Positions 1-10,003 of a stretch of 64,000 bases of DNA are shown here, piece after piece (position 1 is the stretch's first letter; each line of letters starts with the position of its first letter). This DNA is from Cognatilysobacter terrigena (GTDB lineage: Bacteria > Pseudomonadota > Gammaproteobacteria > Xanthomonadales > Xanthomonadaceae): positions 1 to 64,000 of the forward strand of contig NZ_SELT01000016.1 in NCBI RefSeq assembly GCF_004361065.1, in the 5' to 3' direction. The notes under the pieces were generated by a model, which did no database searches, was not told where the DNA came from, and was given only the letters and a program-made list of their open reading frames with translations. The translations under genes and the position numbers were made by a program.

Positions 1-1271
1 CGCGCGCGCACGGCTTCCAGACGTCGATCGCACACTCGCTCGAAGAATCGCGTCGCGCCATGGGCCGCGGCATGAGCGACCTGACGATGCTGGACGTGAC
101 GCTGCCGGACGGAACCGCGTTCGACCTGCTCGCCGAACTCGATGCCCGCCAGCACAGCCGCATCGCCCTGATGACGGGCGAGACCTCGCTCGAGACCGCG
201 CGGCGTGCAGTGGGCCTGCCGGTGCTCGATTACCTGCTGAAGCCGCTGTGCCCGCAGCAGTTCGAATCGTTGTTGAGCCAGGCGTCCGCACGCGCGCTCG
301 CCCAGATCGCCGGCGCGCGACCGGACGGCATCGTCGGCGACTGCGATGCGATGCGGCAGCTGACGGTCGACCTCGACCGCGTCGCACCGGCACGCGTCTC
401 CGTGCTCATCACCGGCGAAAGCGGCACGGGCAAGGAGTTGGTGGCGCGCGCGGTGCACGATCGCAGCCGGCGTCGTGGCGCATTTGTCGCTGTGAACTGC
501 GGTGCGATCGCACCGGATCTGCTCGCCAGCCATCTGTTCGGCCACGAGCGCGGTAGTTTCACCGGCGCGCAGCAGCGGCACGTCGGCTATTTCGAACAGG
601 CCAATCGCGGCACGCTGTTCCTCGACGAGATCACCGAGATGCCGCCCGCGCTGCAGGTCTACCTGCTGCGCGTGCTGGAAACCGGCGAAGTCACGCGCGT
701 GGGCGGCAGCGAGAACATTCCGGTCGACGTGCGCATCGTCGCGGCGACCAATCGCGATCCGATCCAGAGCATCGAACAGGGCAAGCTGCGGGAGGATCTG
801 TATTACCGCCTCGCCGACTTCGTCATCGCGTTGCCGCCGTTGCGTGCGCGCGGTACGGATGTCGTGCTGCTCGCGAACGTCTTCGTCGAACGACTCAACG
901 CCGAGCACGGCCAGGTCAAGCAACTCGCACCCGATGCCGAGCGCATGCTGGTCCGCCACGGTTGGCCCGGCAATATCCGCGAACTGCGTAGCGTGGTGCA
1001 GCGCGCCTATCTGCTGAGCGATGGGCCGCTCGTTCGCATTCCGGTCCTTGGTCGCCGCGCGCTTCCTTTGCACCAGGACGACAGCAGCATCGTGTTCCAT
1101 GTGGGCATGAGCTATGCCGACGTCGAGCGCGAGATGCTGCTCAAGACGCTCACCAAGGTCGACGGCGACAAGACCGAAGCCGCGCGCATCCTCGGTGTCA
1201 GCGTGCGCACGATCCACAACCAGCTCGCGCGACTGGCCGTAGCCGGCGACGACGCCATACCGCATGTCTGA
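1..1271 (+). CDS. Sigma-54-dependent response regulator (NtrC family), 5' end cut by window
   Basis: The reading frame is open from base 3, so the gene begins before the window; the ATG at 60 lies inside the receiver domain and is not the start. Visible order: second part of a receiver domain (phospho-acceptor Asp in LTMLDVTLPDG at about 93-95, conserved Lys in YLLKP at about 240), AAA+ domain with Walker A GESGTGKE, the sigma-54 contact loop as GSFTGA (a common variant of GAFTGA), Walker B LFLDE, and a C-terminal Fis-type helix-turn-helix (KTEAARILGVSVRTIHNQL). Members of this family hydrolyse ATP to remodel sigma-54 RNA polymerase bound at -24/-12 promoters. The stop overlaps the next small gene by 8 bases, so the two are probably co-translated. 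The sensor kinase may lie upstream, outside the window. A candidate target promoter lies at 3567-3582. Confidence 0.93.
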   Translation, partial: RAHGFQTSIAHSLEESRRAMGRGMSDLTMLDVTLPDGTAFDLLAELDARQHSRIALMTGETSLETARRAVGLPVLDYLLKPLCPQQFESLLSQASARALAQIAGARPDGIVGDCDAMRQLTVDLDRVAPARVSVLITGESGTGKELVARAVHDRSRRRGAFVAVNCGAIAPDLLASHLFGHERGSFTGAQQRHVGYFEQANRGTLFLDEITEMPPALQVYLLRVLETGEVTRVGGSENIPVDVRIVAATNRDPIQSIEQGKLREDLYYRLADFVIALPPLRARGTDVVLLANVFVERLNAEHGQVKQLAPDAERMLVRHGWPGNIRELRSVVQRAYLLSDGPLVRIPVLGRRALPLHQDDSSIVFHVGMSYADVEREMLLKTLTKVDGDKTEAARILGVSVRTIHNQLARLAVAGDDAIPHV

Positions 1272-1488
1272 GCCGTTTCCACCGCACGGCCCTCTAACGC
1301 CCCACCCCTTTGGACGCTGGCGACACGACCTCTCCAACGAGGTCAACGCACTGACGATGGCGACGTCGGCCGCGCGCTACATGATCGAGATGGGGAATCT
1401 GCAGGCGGCGATGGTCAACCTTGCGCGCGCGGAGGAGTCGGGGCGTCGCTGCGTCGAACTCCTACGCACCGGTCCGCCGATTCCCTGA
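1264..1488 (+). CDS. Small H-box (histidine-kinase DHp-like) protein without ATPase domain
   Basis: This 74-aa protein overlaps the sigma-54 regulator by 8 bases. Residues 18-30 read GRWRHDLSNEVNA, close to a histidine-kinase H-box (His, acidic residue, Leu, x, Asn) with candidate phospho-His at 21. The remainder is predicted helical and rich in Ala, Met and Glu, as expected for the second helix of a dimerisation and phosphotransfer hairpin. No catalytic ATP-binding domain follows, because the frame ends at 1488 just before a terminator. It could pass phosphate to or from the neighbouring receiver, dimerise with a kinase, or be a degenerate remnant. The family was not recognised by name. The overlap and the intact H-box support a real gene; the function is inferred. 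Confidence 0.7.
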   Translation: MSEPFPPHGPLTPHPFGRWRHDLSNEVNALTMATSAARYMIEMGNLQAAMVNLARAEESGRRCVELLRTGPPIP

Positions 1489-1493
1489 TTTGC

Positions 1494-1527
1494 AAAAAAA
1501 CGGCCCGCCGAAGCGGGCCGTTTCGTT
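1494..1527 (-). terminator. Bidirectional intrinsic terminator
   Basis: A 9-bp stem ACGGCCCGC / GCGGGCCGT with a CGAA loop (TTCG on the minus strand) is followed on the minus strand by seven T residues and on the plus strand by TTCGTTT. It sits between two convergent genes and should end the BON gene (stronger side) and the regulator/H-box operon. Confidence 0.85.
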
Positions 1528-1544
1528 TCCCAGCAGACGTGCGA

Positions 1545-3497
1545 TCAGTGCGACGACGAACGCGACGCGCTGCCGCCGTCCTTCTTCGTCGAGCTCGACG
1601 AGGCAGACGTACCGGACGAGCCGCTCGATCCCGTCGTGCCACTGGCGCCCGCCTGGCGCGATGCTTCATCGCCTTCCGACGACGAGGCGCTCGGCGACGA
1701 ACCGCTCGACTGCGCGGACTGACCCGACGTCGCGGACTGCGACGACTGCGAACCGGACTGGCCCGATTGACCGGACAGCGACGACGAACCCGAGCCGCCC
1801 GACAGCGACGACTGCGAGCTGCTCTGCCCGCCCTGCGCCGAAGCGGACTGGCCGGACGACTGCGAAGACGACGACGATTGCGAGCGGTTGTCGGACTGCG
1901 AGCCCACGCGGATGCGGTTGTCGATGTCGCGAACACCCGCGCACGACTCGGCGATGTCCTCGATGCGGTGCTTCATCCAACGCTGCTCCACGATGCCTTC
2001 GAGGATGATCTTTCCGCCTTCCGAACGCACTTCGACTTCGGTGACGTCGATCTCGTGCGCATTCATCAGGCGCTCGTTGAGGTCGTCGACGATGCGCTCG
2101 TCCGAACGCGTGTAGTTCTTCGGGCCGCGGCCACGCTGCGACTGCAGGCCGCGCTGCGACGACTGCTGGCTGTAGCCGTACATCCCGCCCTGGCTGCCCT
2201 GCGCGTACTGCGACGAGCCCGAGCCCTGGTTGTACTGCGTCTGGCTGTCGCCCGAGAACGTCGACTGCGAACGGTTCGAGTAGCCACCATCGCCATAGCC
2301 GCGGCTGCTGCCGAACTGCGACTGGCCCGGCCCGTACTGCGACTGGCCGAAGCCATTGCCCTGCTGGCCGTAGCCCTGCGAACCCTGTCCGTACTGCTGG
2401 GATCCGCCGTAGCCGCCCTGACCGTACTGCTGCGACGAGCCGTGGCCCTGCGAGCTCTGCCCGTACTGCGACGAACCCTGACCCTGCGAACCCTGGCCGT
2501 ACTGCTGCGATCCACCCTGCCCGCTCATCTGCGTGCTGCCGTAGTCGCCCTGGCCGCGCCAGCTGTTGAAGCTGGACTCGTGCTGCATGTACGGGCTGCC
2601 GTAGCCACCGTGCACGCCGGTCTGCGATGCACCGAAACCACCGACGAGATATTCGCGATCGCGGTTGAAGTCGCCACCGCCGTACGTGCTGCCCTGCGAG
2701 CCGTAGGTGCCTTGCGAGCCGTACTGCTGCCCGTAGCTACCCTGCGAGCCATAGCTCGAGCTCGACCCGTAGCCCTGGCCCGACGAGCGACCCTGGCTCT
2801 CATTGCCGTACGAGCCATAGCCCTGTGACTGCGAATAAGGCGCGCCCTGGCCGTACTGCTGCGAGCCGCCCTGCGAATGCTGCTGCGAACCGTAGCCCTG
2901 CGACCCGTACTGCTGCGAGGAACCGTGCTGCGACGAGCCATAGCCTTGCGAGCCTTGGCCATACTGCGAGCCGCCATAGCCCTGCGAGCCATGACCGTAC
3001 TGCTGCGACGAACCGTAGTTCTGCGACTGCTGCGAACCGCCGTAGCCGCCCTGACCGGACGAGCCCGACCCGTACTGCTGCGATGAGCCGTAACCACCGC
3101 CCATCGAACCGTGCTGGCCGTACTGCTGACCTTGCCCGTATTGCGAGCCCTGGCCCGACGACGACTGCTGGCCGTAGTCCGACGTGCCGTAGTTGCTCTG
3201 GCCGTACTGGTTGCCACGGCTGTACATCTCACCCTGGTTCATCTGATTGGAGTACGAGGGCTCCCACTGGCCACTCTCGCGCCCGGCGCCCTGGCGCGCG
3301 GCTTGCGAATTCTCCGACTGGTAATTCGAACCCTGCTGCTGACCTCGGCCGCTCGACTGCTGGCCGTGTTCGTTGTTATGCATGTCCTGTTTCCTCTCGT
3401 TGATCCAGTTTCGACTCGCGTTAAACGCTTCTGCACCAAGCCGCATGACATCGTTCGCGACTTCGCGGAGCTGGCGTCCCAACTGTTGATCACGCAC
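1545..3497 (-). CDS. BON-domain protein with very long Ser/Gly/Tyr/Gln prion-like low-complexity region
   Basis: The protein has 650 residues from a GTG at 3497 preceded by GGAGGA seven bases upstream. An ATG at 3383 with its own GAGAGGA is an alternative start, giving 612 residues. The longer open frame up to 3662 is unlikely because a sigma-54-type promoter lies inside it. Residues about 1-38 are a short helical segment. About 40-455 are imperfect repeats built from QQYGQ, GSSQ, QGYG and SQYG units, almost lacking hydrophobics. About 460-530 are one BON domain (a lipid- or ligand-binding fold of OsmY/Kbp-type proteins) around NYTRSDERIVDDLNERLM. The last 120 residues are a Ser/Gln/Gly tail. 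No signal peptide is seen, so it is probably cytoplasmic. BON proteins are often stress-induced. The composition resembles eukaryotic FUS/EWS domains that phase-separate; that behaviour is inference. Confidence 0.85.
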   Translation of the reverse strand: MRDQQLGRQLREVANDVMRLGAEAFNASRNWINERKQDMHNNEHGQQSSGRGQQQGSNYQSENSQAARQGAGRESGQWEPSYSNQMNQGEMYSRGNQYGQSNYGTSDYGQQSSSGQGSQYGQGQQYGQHGSMGGGYGSSQQYGSGSSGQGGYGGSQQSQNYGSSQQYGHGSQGYGGSQYGQGSQGYGSSQHGSSQQYGSQGYGSQQHSQGGSQQYGQGAPYSQSQGYGSYGNESQGRSSGQGYGSSSSYGSQGSYGQQYGSQGTYGSQGSTYGGGDFNRDREYLVGGFGASQTGVHGGYGSPYMQHESSFNSWRGQGDYGSTQMSGQGGSQQYGQGSQGQGSSQYGQSSQGHGSSQQYGQGGYGGSQQYGQGSQGYGQQGNGFGQSQYGPGQSQFGSSRGYGDGGYSNRSQSTFSGDSQTQYNQGSGSSQYAQGSQGGMYGYSQQSSQRGLQSQRGRGPKNYTRSDERIVDDLNERLMNAHEIDVTEVEVRSEGGKIILEGIVEQRWMKHRIEDIAESCAGVRDIDNRIRVGSQSDNRSQSSSSSQSSGQSASAQGGQSSSQSSLSGGSGSSSLSGQSGQSGSQSSQSATSGQSAQSSGSSPSASSSEGDEASRQAGASGTTGSSGSSGTSASSSSTKKDGGSASRSSSH

Positions 3498-3566
3498 TGA
3501 GTGTTCCTCCGTGTTCGGATCTCGTTCGCGTGGAAGTAGCCGCCTCGCAGCGACACACGGAATAGC

Positions 3567-3582
3567 GCAAGGTCCATGCCAA
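3567..3582 (-). promoter_or_regulatory. Sigma-54 (-24/-12) promoter for the BON gene
   Basis: Read on the minus strand, TTGGCATGGACCTTGC matches the sigma-54 consensus TTGGCAC-N5-TTGC at all invariant positions: GG and GC are separated by exactly ten bases, and only the last base of TGGCAC differs. Transcription would begin near 3555, about 58 bases before the GTG at 3497. A sigma-54 activator gene lies 2.3 kb away. No convincing activator site was identified upstream; the best weak candidate is GCGC-TGTC-GCGC at 3670-3681. Confidence 0.6.
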
Positions 3583-3779
3583 CTGCAGACGTATGCGGCG
3601 CAACCCCTTTCACGCGATGTTTCTGCGGATGTTTCGGATGCGCGAAAGTTTTTCCCGCACATCGATTACGCGCTGTCGCGCACCTGAACACGGCACTCAC
3701 ACACGTTTGACGCAGCGCTGTCATCCGGTTTGCGAGAGTGGAAACGGGGCCTTGCGGCCCTCCCCCTCACGAGCGAGAA

Positions 3780-4163
3780 ATGACGATGAAGAAGACTCTG
3801 GCTATTGCAGCGACGCTGCTGGCACTGACTGCGTGTCACCGCGACGACGCCGCCGACCAGTCGGCCACGACCACCGCGGGTTCGGACACGGCGACGACCG
3901 CGCCGGCGACCGACACCACGGGCACGACGGGCACCGATACGACGGGCACCACCGGCACCACCGGTGATATGTCCGGTACGGGCACGACCGGCACGACCGG
4001 CGACATGTCCGGCACGGGCACCGGCACGACGGGCACGGGTACGGGCACCGATACGACGGGTGCCGGCACCGGTACGGGCACGGGCACCGGAACGGGTACG
4101 ACGGGCACGAGCACGGACTCGAACCAGCAGAACAGCGGTTCGACCACGCCGCCGACGCCGTAA
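3780..4163 (+). CDS. Thr/Gly-repeat lipoprotein
   Basis: The protein has 127 residues from ATG 3780 (an ATG two codons later is equally possible; GAGCGAG precedes). The signal sequence MTMKKTLAIAATLLALTAC ends in a lipobox (LTAC), so it should be processed by signal peptidase II and anchored in a membrane. After HRDDAADQS the protein is almost wholly Thr and Gly, with short Asp- or Met-containing units (TGTTG, GDMSGTG, GTGTGT) and a final SDSNQQNSG stretch. No enzyme domain is present. Such repeats probably form a flexible envelope spacer. The DNA is a run of related 6- to 9-bp units (GGCACGACG and variants) and could change length by slippage. A small hairpin lies just before the start. It is followed by a strong terminator. 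Confidence 0.8.
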   Translation: MTMKKTLAIAATLLALTACHRDDAADQSATTTAGSDTATTAPATDTTGTTGTDTTGTTGTTGDMSGTGTTGTTGDMSGTGTGTTGTGTGTDTTGAGTGTGTGTGTGTTGTSTDSNQQNSGSTTPPTP

Positions 4164-4180
4164 TACGCGACGCAGTGACG

Positions 4181-4213
4181 AAAACGGCGGCCCAGGCCGC
4201 CGTTTTCTTTTTC
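4181..4213 (+). terminator. Bidirectional intrinsic terminator
   Basis: An 11-bp stem AAAACGGCGGC / GCCGCCGTTTT (4181-4191 with 4196-4206) with a CCAG loop is followed by CTTTTTCC. It ends the lipoprotein gene; read on the other strand it also has a TTTT run and can end ligD. Confidence 0.88.
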
Positions 4214-4269
4214 CTTATTCTCCGATGCGATAGCGCGACATTCGCGCGATCGCCAACCGGACTGTGCGT

Positions 4270-7014
4270 CTACACCGGCAACGGTTTCGCGCGCGCGATG
4301 ATGTCCAGCGCTTCATCCGGCATCGTCCGCTTCGCCGCATCCGCGAGCGTATAGCGCGCCGGACTTTTTGCCCGCGAAAGTTCCGCCCACGTCACCGGCA
4401 CCGCGACCGGCGCGCCTTCGCGCGCACGCAGCGACCAACTCGCCACGCTCGTCGCGCCACGGCCGTTGCGCAGCCAATCGATGAAGATGCGCCCCTTGCG
4501 CTTGGCCTTGCTCATCGTCGCGATGTAGCGATCAGGCGACTGGCGCTCCATCGCGTCGGCGAACGCTTCGCAGAAGAGGCGCGCCTGCTCCCAGTCCGCG
4601 CTGGGGCGCAGCGGCACCACCACGTGCACGCCCTTGCCGCCCGACAGCTTCGGAAACGATTCCAACCCCGCGTCGAGCAGACGGTCGCGGACTTCCTTCG
4701 CCGCGTTGCGAATCTGCGGCCACTCGATCGATGGATCCGGATCGAGGTCGAACACGATGCGGTCGGGCTGCTCGATCGCGTCGATGCGCGAGCCCCACGG
4801 ATGCAGCTCGATCGCATTCATCTGCACCAGCGACATCAGGCCTTCCACGCTGTCGACGTAGAAGTATTCCGCTTCGTCGCCATCGTTCTCGACCAGCGTG
4901 TAGCCCTTCACAGCATCGCTGAAGCCGTGCTTCACGTGCTTCTGGAAGAAGTGCTGCCCGCGGATGCCGTCGGGGCAGCGCACGATCGACAGCAGTCGTC
5001 CGCCGATTTCCTCGAGCAGCTGCGGTGCGGCCTTCAGGTAGTAGTTCCAGACGTCCTGCTTGGTGTAGCCCTGTCCGGGATAGACCACGCGATCGGGGCT
5101 GCTAAGGTTCGGCAGGTTGGACGTGTCGAGATCGATCTTCAGCTTCGTCCGACGCGCAGTGCTTTTGGACGCCGCCTTCTTCGATGCGGTTTTTTTCGCG
5201 GCAGCCTTTCGTGCCGTCGTGCCCTTCGACGCGCCGGTCGACGCCGTCGCCGACTTCGCAGCGCGCTTCGCCGTCTTCTTCGTTGTCTTGGATGCCACGT
5301 GGATCGTCTCCGGCTGCGCCAGTGCCTCGGGCGTGGCGGGCTTGTCATCGCGCAGGCGATGGAACGACGCCTGCCGCACCAGGCCCCCCTTGCCCCAACC
5401 GCGGAAGAACACTTCCACCACCGTCTTCGGCTTCACCCAGTGGATGCGGCCCTTCGGCAGCGGAACGTGCTTGGGAATCTCGACGACGGGCTCCGACACT
5501 TCCATCGCGCGCAGGCGCTTGGTGAGGTCGAGCAGCACATCGTTGTTCATGCCGGAGCCGACCCGCCCCGCGTACACGAGCGTGCGATCGCGGTACTGCC
5601 CGAGCATCAGCGCACCCAGGCCCTTGCGCGAGCCCTGCGGCGGCGTGTAGCCGACCACCACGAATTCGCGCGTCTCCGCGATCTTCACCTTCAGCCACTC
5701 CGCCGAGCGGCCGTCCACGTAGGTGGAACCGACGCGCTTGCTGATGATGCCTTCCATGCCACGATCGCGCGCCGCATCGAAGATCTCCGGCCCGCGTCCG
5801 ACAATGTGCGAGCTGTAGACCAGCCTCGGGTCGGCACCCTGCAGCAGCTGTTCGAGCAGCGCCTTGCGCTCCACCAGCGGCGCGCCGCGCAGGTCGTGGC
5901 CGTCGACGGCGAGCAGGTCGAAGATCACGTAGCGCATGTCGCGCGGGTCCTTGTCGGACAACGCCTTCTGCAGCGCATTGAAGTCGCTGTAGCCCGCCTT
6001 GTCGACGACGATCAACTCACCATCGAACACTGCAGTCGTGCCGAAGTCCTTGAGCCACTGCATCAGGTACGGCGCCCGTTCGTTCCACGGAATGCCGTTG
6101 CGCGACCACGCGGCGGGCGAGCGCCCGCTCTGCGTGATGAGCCGGTAGCCGTCCCACTTCCACTCGTGCAGCCAATCGTCGCCGCCCGGCGCAGTGTCGG
6201 CGGAGACCGTCAGCATCGGTTCGACGAATTCGCCGAGCGGATATTTCGCGCCATCGGCGAGCTTCGCGGCCAGGCGCTTGATTGCGCGCAGGTCGCGCGT
6301 CGTGCCGCTTGCGCGGCGTGTCGAGGCGGGCGACTTCGCCGCGGACGCAGCCTTCTTGCCGGTACTGCGCGTCGCCGTGCGACGCGTGGAGGCGGTGCGG
6401 CTCTTGGGCATGGCGCGCTCCGTGTCGAAGCCCTTGCGGGCGCGGATTTCGAGTCCTTCGCGCGTCGACGCGCCGGGTGCGTCGGACGGCGGCGGTGGCA
6501 GGTCGCCGATGAGGTCGTCCGCCTCCAGGTCGGCGGCGTATTCGTCGGTGCGCTTGAGCAGCATCCACTGCGCGCGCTTGCCCTTCTGGTGCGTGCGGAT
6601 CAGTGACCACCGGCCTTTCAGGCGATCGCCGTCCACCGAGAAGTCGAGGCGTCCCTTCTTGATCGACGCATGCAAATCGCCCTCGGGCGTCCACGTGCCG
6701 TGGTCGAAGATCGCCATGTGGCCCGCGCCGTATTCGCCTTCCGGGATCAGGCCCTGGAAGTGCGAATACGTCATCGGATGATCTTCAGTCTCGACAGCGA
6801 GGCGCTTCTCGCCCGGCCGGAACGACGGCCCACGCGGGACGGCCCAGCTGCGCAGCACGCCGTCGATCTCGAGCCGGAAGTCGTAGTGGCGTGCGCGCGC
6901 ATGGTGGAGCTGCACGACAAAGGACAGCGGACCGCCCTTGCGCTGGCGGACCTCGCCCTTCGGCTCCGGCGTGCGCGAGAACTCGCGCTTGCGGTTGTAT
7001 TCCTGCAACCCCAT
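4270..7014 (-). CDS. ligD: Multifunctional DNA ligase D (end-joining)
   Basis: This 914-aa protein has the three LigD modules. The N-terminal 3'-phosphoesterase (about residues 30-165) carries QLHHARARHYDFRLE. The central ATP-dependent ligase (about 258-560) has the adenylation motif EWKWDGYR with Lys286. The C-terminal primase-polymerase (about 645-914) carries FDLDPDPS and LSGGKGVHVVVPL. Lys/Ala-rich linkers (about 200-240 and 595-640) separate the modules. The order PE-LIG-POL is the one known from Pseudomonas. With Ku it rejoins double-strand breaks without homology, filling, trimming and sealing ends. It is translated 3 bases after ku, clearly one operon. Length is as expected. Confidence 0.97.
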   Translation of the reverse strand: MGLQEYNRKREFSRTPEPKGEVRQRKGGPLSFVVQLHHARARHYDFRLEIDGVLRSWAVPRGPSFRPGEKRLAVETEDHPMTYSHFQGLIPEGEYGAGHMAIFDHGTWTPEGDLHASIKKGRLDFSVDGDRLKGRWSLIRTHQKGKRAQWMLLKRTDEYAADLEADDLIGDLPPPPSDAPGASTREGLEIRARKGFDTERAMPKSRTASTRRTATRSTGKKAASAAKSPASTRRASGTTRDLRAIKRLAAKLADGAKYPLGEFVEPMLTVSADTAPGGDDWLHEWKWDGYRLITQSGRSPAAWSRNGIPWNERAPYLMQWLKDFGTTAVFDGELIVVDKAGYSDFNALQKALSDKDPRDMRYVIFDLLAVDGHDLRGAPLVERKALLEQLLQGADPRLVYSSHIVGRGPEIFDAARDRGMEGIISKRVGSTYVDGRSAEWLKVKIAETREFVVVGYTPPQGSRKGLGALMLGQYRDRTLVYAGRVGSGMNNDVLLDLTKRLRAMEVSEPVVEIPKHVPLPKGRIHWVKPKTVVEVFFRGWGKGGLVRQASFHRLRDDKPATPEALAQPETIHVASKTTKKTAKRAAKSATASTGASKGTTARKAAAKKTASKKAASKSTARRTKLKIDLDTSNLPNLSSPDRVVYPGQGYTKQDVWNYYLKAAPQLLEEIGGRLLSIVRCPDGIRGQHFFQKHVKHGFSDAVKGYTLVENDGDEAEYFYVDSVEGLMSLVQMNAIELHPWGSRIDAIEQPDRIVFDLDPDPSIEWPQIRNAAKEVRDRLLDAGLESFPKLSGGKGVHVVVPLRPSADWEQARLFCEAFADAMERQSPDRYIATMSKAKRKGRIFIDWLRNGRGATSVASWSLRAREGAPVAVPVTWAELSRAKSPARYTLADAAKRTMPDEALDIIARAKPLPV

Positions 7015-7017
7015 GCG

Positions 7018-7911
7018 TCAGGCCCGCTTCTTCGTCGCCCGCTTCTTGGGCTTGGCCGCAGGGGTCTTGCGCGCACGCGTGGTCTTCTTCGCCGCCGTTT
7101 TCGACGTGCCGCCGCCCTTCTTCTCGAGGCTCTTCTTGAGAAGCGACATGAAATCGACGACGTTGGTCGCCGTCTCCGCGTCCTCGTCGTCCTTCTCTTC
7201 CTCGATGTGCGCCGTGTGCTTCTGCTTGATGCGTTCCTTGATGACCTGCGACAGCTTCTCGCGGAACTCGTCCTTGTAGTCGGCTGGCGAGAACTCGTCG
7301 CTCATCGACTCCATCAGCATCTCGGCCATTTCCATCTCGCGCGGCGTCACATGCCAGGCGCGCGCGCTGCCCGACGGCAGCTCGTAGTCGCTGACGTCGA
7401 CCAGCTCCTGCGGAAAGCGCAGGAGCATCAGCATGAGCGCGTCGCCCTGCGGCGTGAGCATGCACAGGTATTCGCGGGTTCGAATCACGACGCGCCCCAC
7501 GCCGACGCGGTTGTTCTTCTTCAGGACCTCGCGCAGCAGCACATAGCCCTTCTCGGCCTTCTTGCCGGGGACGAGGATGTAGGGCTTCTCGACATAGGCG
7601 AGCGGAATCGACTCGGCATCGACGAACGTCTCAATCGCTATGGTCTCGTGGTTCTCCGTCGCAGCGCGCTCGATGTCCTCGGGCTTCAGGACGACGTAGT
7701 TGTCCTTGGAGAATTCGTACGCCTTGACGATCTCCTTCCACGGCACTTCCTCGCCCGTCTCGGCGTTGACGCGCTCATAGCGGATCGGTGCGTTGTTGCG
7801 CGCGTCCAGCATGCGGAAGTGGATGTCCGTGCGGCGCTCGCCGGACATCAGCTGGATGGGAATGTTGAGCAGGCCGAACGAAATCGAGCCGGTCCAGATG
7901 GGCCTCGCCAT
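7018..7911 (-). CDS. ku: Ku protein (non-homologous end-joining)
   Basis: This 297-aa bacterial Ku begins MARPIWTGSISFGLLNIP, the standard family start, and has the beta-barrel core through about residue 230. The C-terminal tail (about 255-297) is Lys/Arg/Ala-rich, which in the family extends DNA contacts and helps recruit LigD. It forms homodimers that encircle DNA ends. It is the first gene of a ku-ligD operon with a 3-base gap. The start lies about 107 bases from the divergent ArsC-like gene, so the promoter is in 7912-8018. Bacterial Ku/LigD often serve in stationary phase or desiccation; no promoter motif was identified here. Confidence 0.97.
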   Translation of the reverse strand: MARPIWTGSISFGLLNIPIQLMSGERRTDIHFRMLDARNNAPIRYERVNAETGEEVPWKEIVKAYEFSKDNYVVLKPEDIERAATENHETIAIETFVDAESIPLAYVEKPYILVPGKKAEKGYVLLREVLKKNNRVGVGRVVIRTREYLCMLTPQGDALMLMLLRFPQELVDVSDYELPSGSARAWHVTPREMEMAEMLMESMSDEFSPADYKDEFREKLSQVIKERIKQKHTAHIEEEKDDEDAETATNVVDFMSLLKKSLEKKGGGTSKTAAKKTTRARKTPAAKPKKRATKKRA

Positions 7912-8018
7912 GAGGGGACGTCTCCAGCAGTTTTCCGAAACGTCGCGCAGCCGGCGTCCGCACCGGGTGAAGCGGCCGCGCGATAATCGTGACGACGGTT
8001 AACCCGAGGGAAACATCC

Positions 8019-8381
8019 ATGTCCGATCCCCCCGTGCTGTTCCACAACAAGGCGAACTGCTCGAAATGCGCGGGCGCGCTGGAGTTGCTGCGGGCGAGCG
8101 GCATCGAGCCGGAGGTGGTCGACATCACCGTACAGCCGCTCGGTGCCGCGCAGCTGCGGGACATTGCGCGAATGACCGGCGCCCCGCTTCGCGCGTTGGT
8201 GCGAACCGGCGAAGCGGCGTACGCAGCGGCCGGGCTCGACGATGACAGCAGCGACGATGCACTGGCCGCCGCGATGGTGGCGCATCCGGAACTCGTCGAG
8301 CGGCCGATCCTGGTGCATCGCGGCCGCGCGGTGGTCGGCCGCCCGCCGGAACGCGTGCTGGAGCTGTTCGACCTCGGCTGA
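8019..8381 (+). CDS. ArsC/Spx-family thioredoxin-fold protein (arsenate reductase-like)
   Basis: This 120-aa protein starts at ATG 8019 with GAGGG upstream. FHNKANCSKC near the N-terminus gives the redox Cys (Cys14) with a second Cys three residues on (Cys17). Arg62, Arg95 (RPILV) and Arg108 (GRP) match the oxyanion-binding arginines of glutaredoxin-coupled arsenate reductases. The reaction would be arsenate to arsenite with glutathione/glutaredoxin. No ars operon lies nearby, so it may be a housekeeping YfgD/ArsC-type paralogue with another role. It is divergent from ku and its stop is 2 bases from the stop of the next, convergent gene. Confidence 0.85.
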   Translation: MSDPPVLFHNKANCSKCAGALELLRASGIEPEVVDITVQPLGAAQLRDIARMTGAPLRALVRTGEAAYAAAGLDDDSSDDALAAAMVAHPELVERPILVHRGRAVVGRPPERVLELFDLG

Positions 8382-8383
8382 GG

Positions 8384-10003
8384 TCAGACCACCTTGGTCA
8401 TGCGCAGCGCAGCAACGCGCGGCGGCGGTGCGAACGAATCGCTGCGTGCGTCTTCCCAGTACTGCTGGAAGACCGCATGCGGTGGCAGGCCCGTGAGCAG
8501 CGCACCGGGCTCGAGGAAGTTGTAGATCGCGGCGAGCGAACGCACTTCCGTTGGCGAGATGCGACGCAGGATGTGCTCGGGCCCGAGTTCGCCGGGGTGG
8601 CGCAGGCCCGCCGCACAGATGAGGTCGCGCAGCGCCTTGAGCGTGTTGTCGTGGAAGTTTGTCACGCGCGTGGCCTTGTCCGGCACGTGCAGGCCCTTCC
8701 AGCGCTTCGGATCCTGCGTCGCCACGCCCGTGGGGCAGCGATCGGTATGGCAGCTCTGCGCCTGGATGCAGCCCAGCGCGAACATGTAGCCGCGCCCCGC
8801 GTTGCACCAGTCGGCGCCCATCGCCATCGTCTTGGCGATATCGAAGCCGCTGATGATGCGGCCCGCCGCGCCGATGCGGATGCGGTCGCGAAGGTCGAGC
8901 CCCACCAGCGTGTTGTGCACGAGCATCAGCGCCTCGTGCATGGGCACGCCAACATGGTCGATGAACTCGGCGGGCGCGGCACCCGTGCCGCCTTCCGCAC
9001 CATCCACGACGATGAAGTCCGGCAGCAGGCCGGTCTCGTGCATCGCCTTCGCGATGCCGAACCACTCCCACGGATGACCGATCGCCAGCTTGAAGCCGGA
9101 GGGCTTGCCGCCCGACAGCGTGCGCAGGCGATCAACGAATTCCAGCAACCCCTTCGGTGTGTCGAACGTCGAATGGCGTGCCGGCGAGATGCAGTCGACG
9201 CCGATCGGTACCCCGCGCGTCGCCGCGATTTCCGGCGTCACCTTCGCGCCGGGCAGCACCCCACCGTGGCCCGGCTTCGCACCCTGCGACAGCTTGACCT
9301 CGATCATCCTGACCTGCGGATTCGCGGCGGCGGCCGCGAACTTCTCCTCGCTGAAACTGCCGTCGTCGTTGCGGCAGCCGAAGTAGCCGGATGCGACTTC
9401 CCACACCAGGTCGCCGCCGAATTCGCGGTGATACGACGAGATCGAGCCCTCGCCCGTGTCGTGGTAGAAGTTGCCGCCTTTCGCGCCCTTGTTGAGTGCG
9501 CGAATCGCGTTCGCCGACAGCGAGCCGAAGCTCATCGCGGAAATGTTGAACACGCTCGCCGAGTACGGCTTCGCGCGATGCGCGCCGATCGTGATGCGGA
9601 AATCGTGCGACATGTACTCCGACGGCTGCAGCGAATGGTTGATCCACTCGTAGTCGGTGCCGTAGATGTCCTGCAGCGTGCCGAACGGGCGCGTGTCGAG
9701 AACGGACTTGGACCGCTGGTACGCCAGCGCCCGCTCCTGCCGCGAAAACGGCACCTCTGCCGTGTCGGCCTCGATGAAGTACTGGCGCATTTCCGGGCCG
9801 ATCGCTTCGAGCCCGTAACGGAAGTGCGCGAGCAACGGATAGTTGCGGCGCAGCGTACTGCGCGTCTGCAGCAGGTCGACCGTGCCGAGCACCGCAAACG
9901 GTGCAAGCAGGACGATCGCGACGGCGCCCTCGCGCGTGACCGCATACCAGGCGATCGCCACCAGTGTCCCGATCAGTACGGCGATATAGAGCGCGTAACG
10001 CAT
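8384..10003 (-). CDS. Membrane-anchored FMN-binding glutamate synthase-like protein
   Basis: The protein has 539 residues from ATG 10003, chosen because AAGGAGG lies four bases upstream; the longer open frame to 10234 runs over the next gene. Two hydrophobic segments near residues 3-50 are followed by the glutamate synthase alpha-subunit FMN/3Fe-4S barrel (KGAKGGNFYHDTGEGSIS, LSQGAKPGHGG, DGAEGGTGAAP, CIQAQSCHTDRCPTGVATQ). The GltB amidotransferase domain is absent, so it cannot take ammonia from glutamine itself. The family (COG0069, stand-alone) is widespread with unclear substrate; a membrane-linked oxidoreductase role is inferred. A small conserved gene lies just upstream on the same strand. 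Confidence 0.9.
   Translation of the reverse strand: MRYALYIAVLIGTLVAIAWYAVTREGAVAIVLLAPFAVLGTVDLLQTRSTLRRNYPLLAHFRYGLEAIGPEMRQYFIEADTAEVPFSRQERALAYQRSKSVLDTRPFGTLQDIYGTDYEWINHSLQPSEYMSHDFRITIGAHRAKPYSASVFNISAMSFGSLSANAIRALNKGAKGGNFYHDTGEGSISSYHREFGGDLVWEVASGYFGCRNDDGSFSEEKFAAAAANPQVRMIEVKLSQGAKPGHGGVLPGAKVTPEIAATRGVPIGVDCISPARHSTFDTPKGLLEFVDRLRTLSGGKPSGFKLAIGHPWEWFGIAKAMHETGLLPDFIVVDGAEGGTGAAPAEFIDHVGVPMHEALMLVHNTLVGLDLRDRIRIGAAGRIISGFDIAKTMAMGADWCNAGRGYMFALGCIQAQSCHTDRCPTGVATQDPKRWKGLHVPDKATRVTNFHDNTLKALRDLICAAGLRHPGELGPEHILRRISPTEVRSLAAIYNFLEPGALLTGLPPHAVFQQYWEDARSDSFAPPPRVAALRMTKVV

Follow-up and report, generated by a model that had tools for sequence, protein, structure and literature searches.

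The rules of protein condensation are known mainly from eukaryotic RNA-binding proteins. Among these, the FET proteins (FUS, EWS and TAF15) carry an RRM, a RanBP2-type zinc finger and RGG boxes. Lysine is a weaker sticker than arginine. BON proteins that have been studied are exported, or display two BON domains, or have a LysM domain; OsmY is periplasmic. Hydrophilins are defined by a glycine content greater than 6% and a mean hydrophilicity greater than 1, and LEA-type proteins are usually lysine-rich and aromatic-poor.

Of the 163 residues of the low-complexity domain FUS-LC, 24 are Tyr and 37 are Gln; in full-length FUS, Tyr makes contacts with Arg (PMC10643395, excerpt). Where tyrosines are uniformly spaced between spacers, the even spacing favours phase separation (PMC10423696, excerpt). 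DolP and BonA are outer-membrane lipoproteins according to abstracts, and a tryptophan in BON helix 1 of DolP (W127) inserts into anionic lipid (PMC7806268, excerpt). The excerpted text of a review of BON proteins notes terminal disordered regions in general terms (PMC11747388). Condensates in bacteria are covered by PMC10534466 (excerpt). The excerpt of PMC6400439, which treats bacterial prion-like proteins, contains no Lysobacter or xanthomonad, and its sole occurrence of "bon" is in Bonferroni. A description of a BON domain joined with a prion-like or condensate-forming region was not found among the titles and abstract openings listed from an open-access library.

The window analyzed here is a 64,000 nt stretch of Cognatilysobacter terrigena DNA. 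The BON protein gene (positions 1545..3497, minus strand) is predicted to encode 650 amino acids followed by a stop codon, with a GTG start at 3497. A Shine-Dalgarno sequence, GGAGG, was read from the sequence at 3506..3510 (minus). Orthologues have a GTG or ATG start equivalent to this GTG and similar Shine-Dalgarno sites precede it; this support is partly built in, since the script favoured starts with such a site. The orthologue alignment also agrees with the start at 3497. An alternative 705 aa open reading frame from an ATG at position 3662 has an unlikely start, because orthologues carry the start equivalent to GTG 3497, and the alignment is against it as well. A probable intrinsic terminator, which consists of a GC-rich hairpin and a T run, is at 1494..1523 (minus); it was read from the sequence and is absent from the consensus-scan output. 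No known RNA or riboswitch was found at gathering scores in window positions 1–9000.

From the N- to the C-terminal end, the protein displays a helix, a 416 aa disordered stretch, a single BON domain and a Ser-rich tail, all encoded on the minus strand. The helix is amphipathic and conserved and spans aa positions 6–44 (3366..3482); it was missed by the first-pass annotation, which was made from the sequence alone. The SYGQ-type disordered region is at aa positions 40–455 (2133..3380). The first-pass annotation had some 400 residues of SYGQ-type units flanking the BON domain; the length and the named units are present, however the stretch is wholly N-terminal to the domain and not on both sides. 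A linker, GRGPKNYTR, in which several alignment columns are invariant or nearly so, precedes the BON domain (aa 456–464, 2106..2132). The BON domain itself (aa 465–532, 1902..2105) is matched by PF04972 at 43 bits (gathering score 27). As had been proposed, it is single, and it is the only Pfam entry found in the 650 aa protein, with neither an RRM nor a zinc finger. NCBIfam gave no match above its cut-offs. The tail is also as first described, a Ser/Gln sequence of about 120 residues: the C-terminal 117 aa (aa 534–650, 1548..1898) are 46% Ser and 12% Gln, with no Tyr. Polar tails are found in most orthologues, and His is the final residue in 20 out of 34.

Amino acid positions 40–455 consist of 79.6% Gly, Ser, Gln and Tyr (26.7% Gly, 21.6% Gln, 20.4% Ser and 10.8% Tyr), and there is no Lys and no RGG. 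The unit QQYGQ is found five times, and GYGSS and SQYGQ three times each. The 53 aromatic residues are never adjacent to each other and are evenly distributed. The CV of the aromatic gaps is 0.44, compared with 0.91 ± 0.12 in shuffled sequences, and none of 2000 shuffles is as low. Within the repetitive stretch there are short tandem arrays of about 2–3 copies each. Codons of identical 5-mer peptides in the SYGQ region differ at 35.3%, against 35.6% when codons are shuffled. Thus codon divergence is at the level of random draws, which argues that the SYGQ repeats are ancient, are maintained as protein sequence and are not a product of recent slippage. The repeats of the Ser-rich tail show a codon difference of 40.2% versus 48.3% shuffled, with 36 of 500 shuffles as low, and may be younger.

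The own-genome background comprised 464 kb, i.e. the window plus 400 kb (a non-random choice), with 1945 stop-to-stop open reading frames of at least 120 aa. The top 100 aa segment of the BON protein is 95% GSQYN and that of the next-best frame is 54%. In 383 kb of 20 other genomes, the best open reading frame outside the family has 51% GSQYN (segments with at least 6% Tyr). The PAPA score, from a re-implementation with assumed propensities, is 0.137. This ranks first of the 1945 frames, of which two, including the BON protein, exceed the assumed threshold of 0.05, and the check with a prion-like predictor proposed earlier therefore comes out positive. The earlier statement that such a region is rare in bacteria stands in part: it is unique in the own-genome sample, but the protein is part of a wider group with members in further bacterial families and in other classes of the same phylum. 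Second in the composition scan is a 247 aa frame elsewhere in the own genome (L075:5897, minus), with up to 17% Tyr per 100 aa segment.

A BON match at an E-value of 0.001 or better is present in 66 of 198 genomes of the family sample, and in 55 the match is at least 42 bits. The homologue search suggested by the first-pass annotation recovered the same architecture, i.e. a disordered region with a BON domain, and the N-terminal helix in 31 of 34 orthologues. The loci cover 14 genus handles of the family as well as named loci; named relatives include Lysobacter segetis, L. xinjiangensis, L. antarcticus, Luteimonas deserti and Tahibacter harae. Forty loci (L004–L043) were reduced to 34 orthologues: L034–L038 were dropped by eye as duplicates of L005, L006, L009, L013 and L014, and L017 is frame-broken or truncated. 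L029 missed the motif used in the spacing and charge counts, which have 33 rows, but is included in the 34-row helix and lysine counts. As the genomes are related, all such counts overstate independence.

The aromatic-gap CV is under the shuffle mean in 31 of 33 orthologues (own protein included), and above it in L039 and L043. The evenness is matched by no more than 10 of 1000 shuffles in 23 of the 33. The 10 that are not significant have regions with 10–16% Arg, and three of these regions are 90 aa or shorter. The length of the disordered region ranges from 79 to 422 aa, and is 79–90 aa in five of 33. In every one of the 33, net charge per residue falls within -0.04 to +0.025, while Arg ranges from 3% to 16%. 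The spacers are of the Gln/Ser type in the genus of the window and mostly have more Arg, Asp and Glu in other genera. Tyr positions are aligned with aromatic residues or His at 85% within the close genus and 64% beyond it, values that agree with upkeep of the pattern but lean on the aligner.

Lysine is nearly absent from these regions. The disordered regions of the 34 orthologues total 8631 residues, of which 6 are Lys and 787 Arg, and the sequences outside contain 156 Lys and 595 Arg in 6017. The ratio K/(K+R) is 0.008 in the disordered regions and 0.15–0.16 in other low-complexity segments (Fisher p 1e-44 and 3e-33). Since low-complexity segments in general reach the latter values, GC content or low complexity alone is insufficient to account for the lysine deficit. 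Together, the spacing, charge and lysine comparisons strongly support the view that selection maintains a sticker-and-spacer pattern, with even Tyr and Phe, Arg without Lys and near-zero charge, and that the exact sequence and the spacer chemistry drift. The FUS-like prion-like likeness that had been claimed is borne out as a sequence grammar, i.e. in composition, even aromatics, Arg without Lys and predicted disorder, kept in most orthologues.

An AlphaFold2 model was made with a 30-row alignment (the 34 orthologues without L031, L032, L040 and L043, the window sequence replacing L004). In it 510 of the 650 residues have a pLDDT below 50, and only the helix at positions 6–44 and the BON domain at about 460–535 are confident. 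The helix is charged, with a pLDDT of about 88–90 at positions 11–40 and a hydrophobic moment of 0.56. It was recognized by eye in all orthologues except L032, L040 and L043, and in L031 it starts about 25 residues in. The modeled BON domain matches the folds of OsmY (Z 12.8), BonA (11.0), DolP (9.9–10.5) and Kbp (8.7). CdsD and YscD, domains of the type III secretion ring, are matched as well (Z 9.0–10.1). The fold is thus shared with OsmY, DolP, BonA and Kbp, and the differences are that the window's protein has one BON domain, no export segment and a mostly low-confidence chain. BON helix 1 (aa 466–479) contains no Trp, which makes binding to anionic lipid by the DolP-type route unlikely. 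Candidate roles for the BON domain are K+ sensing, as in Kbp, or contact with a protein. A phmmer comparison with solved prion-like domains gave weak matches to OsmY and YraP (DolP), and three others at E-values of 1.9 to 3.2; its low-complexity bias correction makes this comparison uninformative.

Upstream of the BON gene is the sequence TGGCATGGACCTTGC, which we take to be a sigma-54 promoter on the basis of the -24 GG/-12 GC consensus. It is at 3567..3581 (minus, read from 3581 to 3567), 84 nt upstream of the start, and is conserved in orthologues. Of the 34 orthologue upstream regions, 19 carry the pattern, compared with 0.0011 expected per 260 nt, and 17 of these sites are 55–100 nt before the start. 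The expectation derives from 4 sites in 928,000 strand-bases of the 464 kb, the BON gene's own site included. The remaining 15 upstream regions do not display the pattern even with one mismatch. A stricter pattern gives 5 sites in the own genome and the reversed control also gives 5; abundance therefore proves nothing and the case for the promoter rests on its conservation. Two of the four other own-genome sites precede genes that we take to be FliE-like and FlhF-like, which are known sigma-54 targets. A sigma-70 promoter was not found in window positions 1400–3900. L012, L015, L019 and L022, which represent four genus handles, lack the promoter, and the stretches that match them (L047, L048, L051 and L054) have a frame for a short-chain dehydrogenase directly upstream; an operon is likely at these four loci.

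The convergent neighbour of the BON gene (3..1271, plus strand) encodes a response-regulator type sigma-54 activator with GSFTGA and Walker A motifs, and its 5′ end is cut by the end of the contig. PF00158 matches this activator at C16:330-827 of the own genome, and an orthologue (L034:6868-8343) displays receiver, sigma-54 interaction and Fis domains by Pfam. In 11 of 29 loci (31 loci less two for which no BON frame was recovered by the script), the BON gene has a sigma-54 activator gene no more than 350 bp away, and 18 of the 29 are without a strict-motif activator. The own genome has 9 PF00158 matches, 7 of them strong, so the closeness of the activator and BON genes is not expected by chance. 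Conservation and position support transcription of the BON gene being switched on by sigma-54, and the switch probably works through the response-regulator activator encoded alongside.

Two further observations concern the activator locus. The PF00158 matches at C16:330-827 and C69:570-1067 of the own genome have identical scores; they are probably one gene repeated at contig ends, which would make the left end of the window an assembly break. A 74 aa frame (1264-1488, plus) overlaps the end of the activator and carries RHDLSNEVNALT, a sequence which we take to resemble a histidine-kinase-dimer stretch. The frame is kept in two other loci, has no Pfam match, and is possibly a stand-alone phosphotransfer helper.

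On the other side of the BON gene there is a frame (4270..7014, minus) which we take to encode a LigD-like DNA ligase; it is a linked neighbour of the BON gene. It is followed by a Ku gene (7018..7911, minus; PF02735, 144.6 bits). Of 31 neighbourhoods, 12 contain LigD and 7 contain Ku. At the level of genomes, Ku is found in 51 of 55 with the BON family versus 79 of 143 without it (p 1e-7). It is within 12 kb of the BON gene in 14 of the 51, in five genus handles, where 0.6 are expected; in g39, one of the 14, the nearby BON match is among the weaker ones. These counts are based on 89 matches, with 55 genomes kept and 16 BON matches below 42 bits left out (among the matches listed), and the association figures are inflated by the relatedness of the genomes. 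The linkage is suggestive of stress or dormancy as the setting. A small lipoprotein-like frame (3783-4163, plus), divergent to the BON gene, has LTAC, presumably a lipobox, followed by Thr/Gly-rich repeats.

The conserved sigma-54 promoter, the adjoining activator and the nearby Ku and LigD genes are new here. Taken with the region's grammar, they lead to the reading that is preferred, and it is quite possible, though somewhat short of probable, that the BON protein is a sigma-54-switched cytoplasmic scaffold of FET-like character, in which Tyr and Arg stickers bring the chains together as condensates, probably when the cell is stressed. Most likely, a signal would act through the sigma-54 activator to turn on synthesis of the protein. 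The chains may then associate by Tyr-Tyr, Tyr-Arg and Gln contacts, and the N-terminal helix and BON domain would serve as folded end-pieces that oligomerize or that bind to a client, a membrane or ions. Under stress, such a condensate could store or protect the contents of the cell, a setting that it would share with Ku/LigD repair. Disorder, grammar and promoter are the steps for which the sequence provides support; condensation, the stress role and a BON ligand are put forward conditionally. The stress-granule-like role proposed in the first-pass annotation is suggested by this same context of Ku/LigD linkage and sigma-54 control.

Resemblance to the FET proteins is in the Ser/Gly/Gln spacers, the regular Tyr and the low charge (10.8% Tyr and 21.6% Gln in the BON protein). 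However, the BON protein is bacterial, has an attached BON domain and lacks an RRM, a zinc finger and RGG in the region, and no homology was shown. Membership in the FET family is thus rejected. The protein is better placed in a disordered subclass of BON proteins; it would act like a FET protein but is not one. Other points weigh against the scaffold. The absence of a detectable RNA-binding domain sets it apart from FET proteins, the evenness of the aromatics falls short of significance in 10 of 33 orthologues, the gap CV exceeds the shuffle mean in two, and five regions are very short. There are also the 15 loci without the promoter, the 18 without a strict-motif activator, the equal counts of the real and reversed patterns in the own genome, and the three orthologues without a similar helix.

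The main rival explanation is that of a dispersed, hydrophilin-like protectant against desiccation or osmotic stress, in which a hydrophilic, Gly-rich disordered chain retains water and covers proteins, with no need for phase separation. With Gly at 21.4% and a GRAVY of -1.31, the BON protein falls within the hydrophilin definition, and GRAVY is -1 or lower in 29 of 34 orthologues. The high Gly content, strong hydrophilicity and disorder are shared with hydrophilins and LEA proteins, and the OsmY-type BON fold and the repair genes near the BON gene are also in keeping with such a role. However, bulk hydrophilicity does not demand even aromatics or Arg without Lys, and these features are the reverse of the usual lysine-rich, aromatic-poor LEA composition. 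The protectant is therefore considered unlikely, although it is a serious alternative.

A flexible tether or display chain is a further alternative, in which the repeats are spacers between the helix, a short partner-binding motif (GYGxSSGY or YGGESxGxGGR) and the BON domain. A GYGxSSGY-type motif occurs in 16 of 34 orthologues where shuffles predict 0.34, and a GGESxxGGR-type motif in six (L005, L006, L012, L018, L020 and L030) where 0.08 is predicted, both motifs having been defined after looking. Alignment also displays conserved blocks in the disordered region within the close genus. It is possible that the two motifs bind partners. However, GYGxSSGY is missing from 18 of the 34, the length of the region varies about fivefold (79 to 422 aa), and the aromatic and lysine grammar spans the whole disordered region and not only the motifs. 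A tether is for these reasons distinctly improbable as the principal role.

Most BON proteins that have been studied are exported, and the same could be supposed here, i.e. a matrix, adhesion or envelope protein. DolP and BonA, outer-membrane lipoproteins by their abstracts, and the periplasmic OsmY all match the BON fold of the model. The window's protein, however, has no hydrophobic segment of the kind used for export or membrane insertion: averaged over 19 residues, Kyte-Doolittle hydropathy peaks at 0.47, inside the BON domain, and the N-terminus is the conserved charged helix. The lack of such a segment is the reason that an envelope role is not taken as the main reading, and it appears very improbable. 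The intracellular location claimed by the first-pass annotation is thus favored, though only negatively, by the lack of a hydrophobic segment and by the charged helix. Neutral, functionless expansion by repeat slippage could produce the tandem arrays and the codon similarity in the tail, but it has almost no likelihood, being largely refuted in the SYGQ region by synonymous differences like those of random draws and by a grammar that is kept across genera.

The BON-part profile extends the comparison beyond the family and separates sharply, with matches of at least 84 bits and the next below 50 bits. Strong matches come from one other family within the order, from one more within the class, and from other classes of the phylum as well. 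Of 15 such loci, five gave no frame; the ten that were readable all display a region rich in Arg and aromatic residues ahead of the GPxxY linker. These single-BON proteins share the GRGPxxYxRSDERI linker, the BON domain and a Lys-poor, aromatic-containing N-terminal region with the window's protein, and differ in the Arg/Asp/Glu-rich spacers of most of the ten and in an extra ASWFGDE-type segment in some. Over 1241 residues, they have 4 Lys and 174 Arg. The aromatic gaps are under the shuffle mean in 10 of 10, and are matched by no more than 5 of 500 shuffles only in L086 and L102.

A broader proposal, which is conceivable but rather doubtful, is that proteobacteria independently evolved a FET-like Tyr/Arg scaffold with a BON domain, from which this lineage made a sigma-54-inducible stress condensate with the aromatic grammar of FUS. 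If so, the Gln/Ser and Arg/Asp spacer variants across genera would be a ready-made test of that grammar. A bacterial protein that has no RNA-binding domain and, in many genera, keeps the spacing, the Arg-over-Lys preference and the charge balance would suggest that the rules of condensation are general and were reached independently. The orthologues, with Tyr spacing largely preserved and variable spacer chemistry, are a natural series that would make the role of the spacers testable in a simple host, and the sigma-54 promoter would provide a handle on the timing of protein production.

The own genome contains other BON sequences. A second BON protein of the family, at C4:76542 (L001), is without the long SYGQ region. 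In C16:68990 (L003), beyond the window, a BON domain is fused to a membrane channel frame that we take to be MscS-like.
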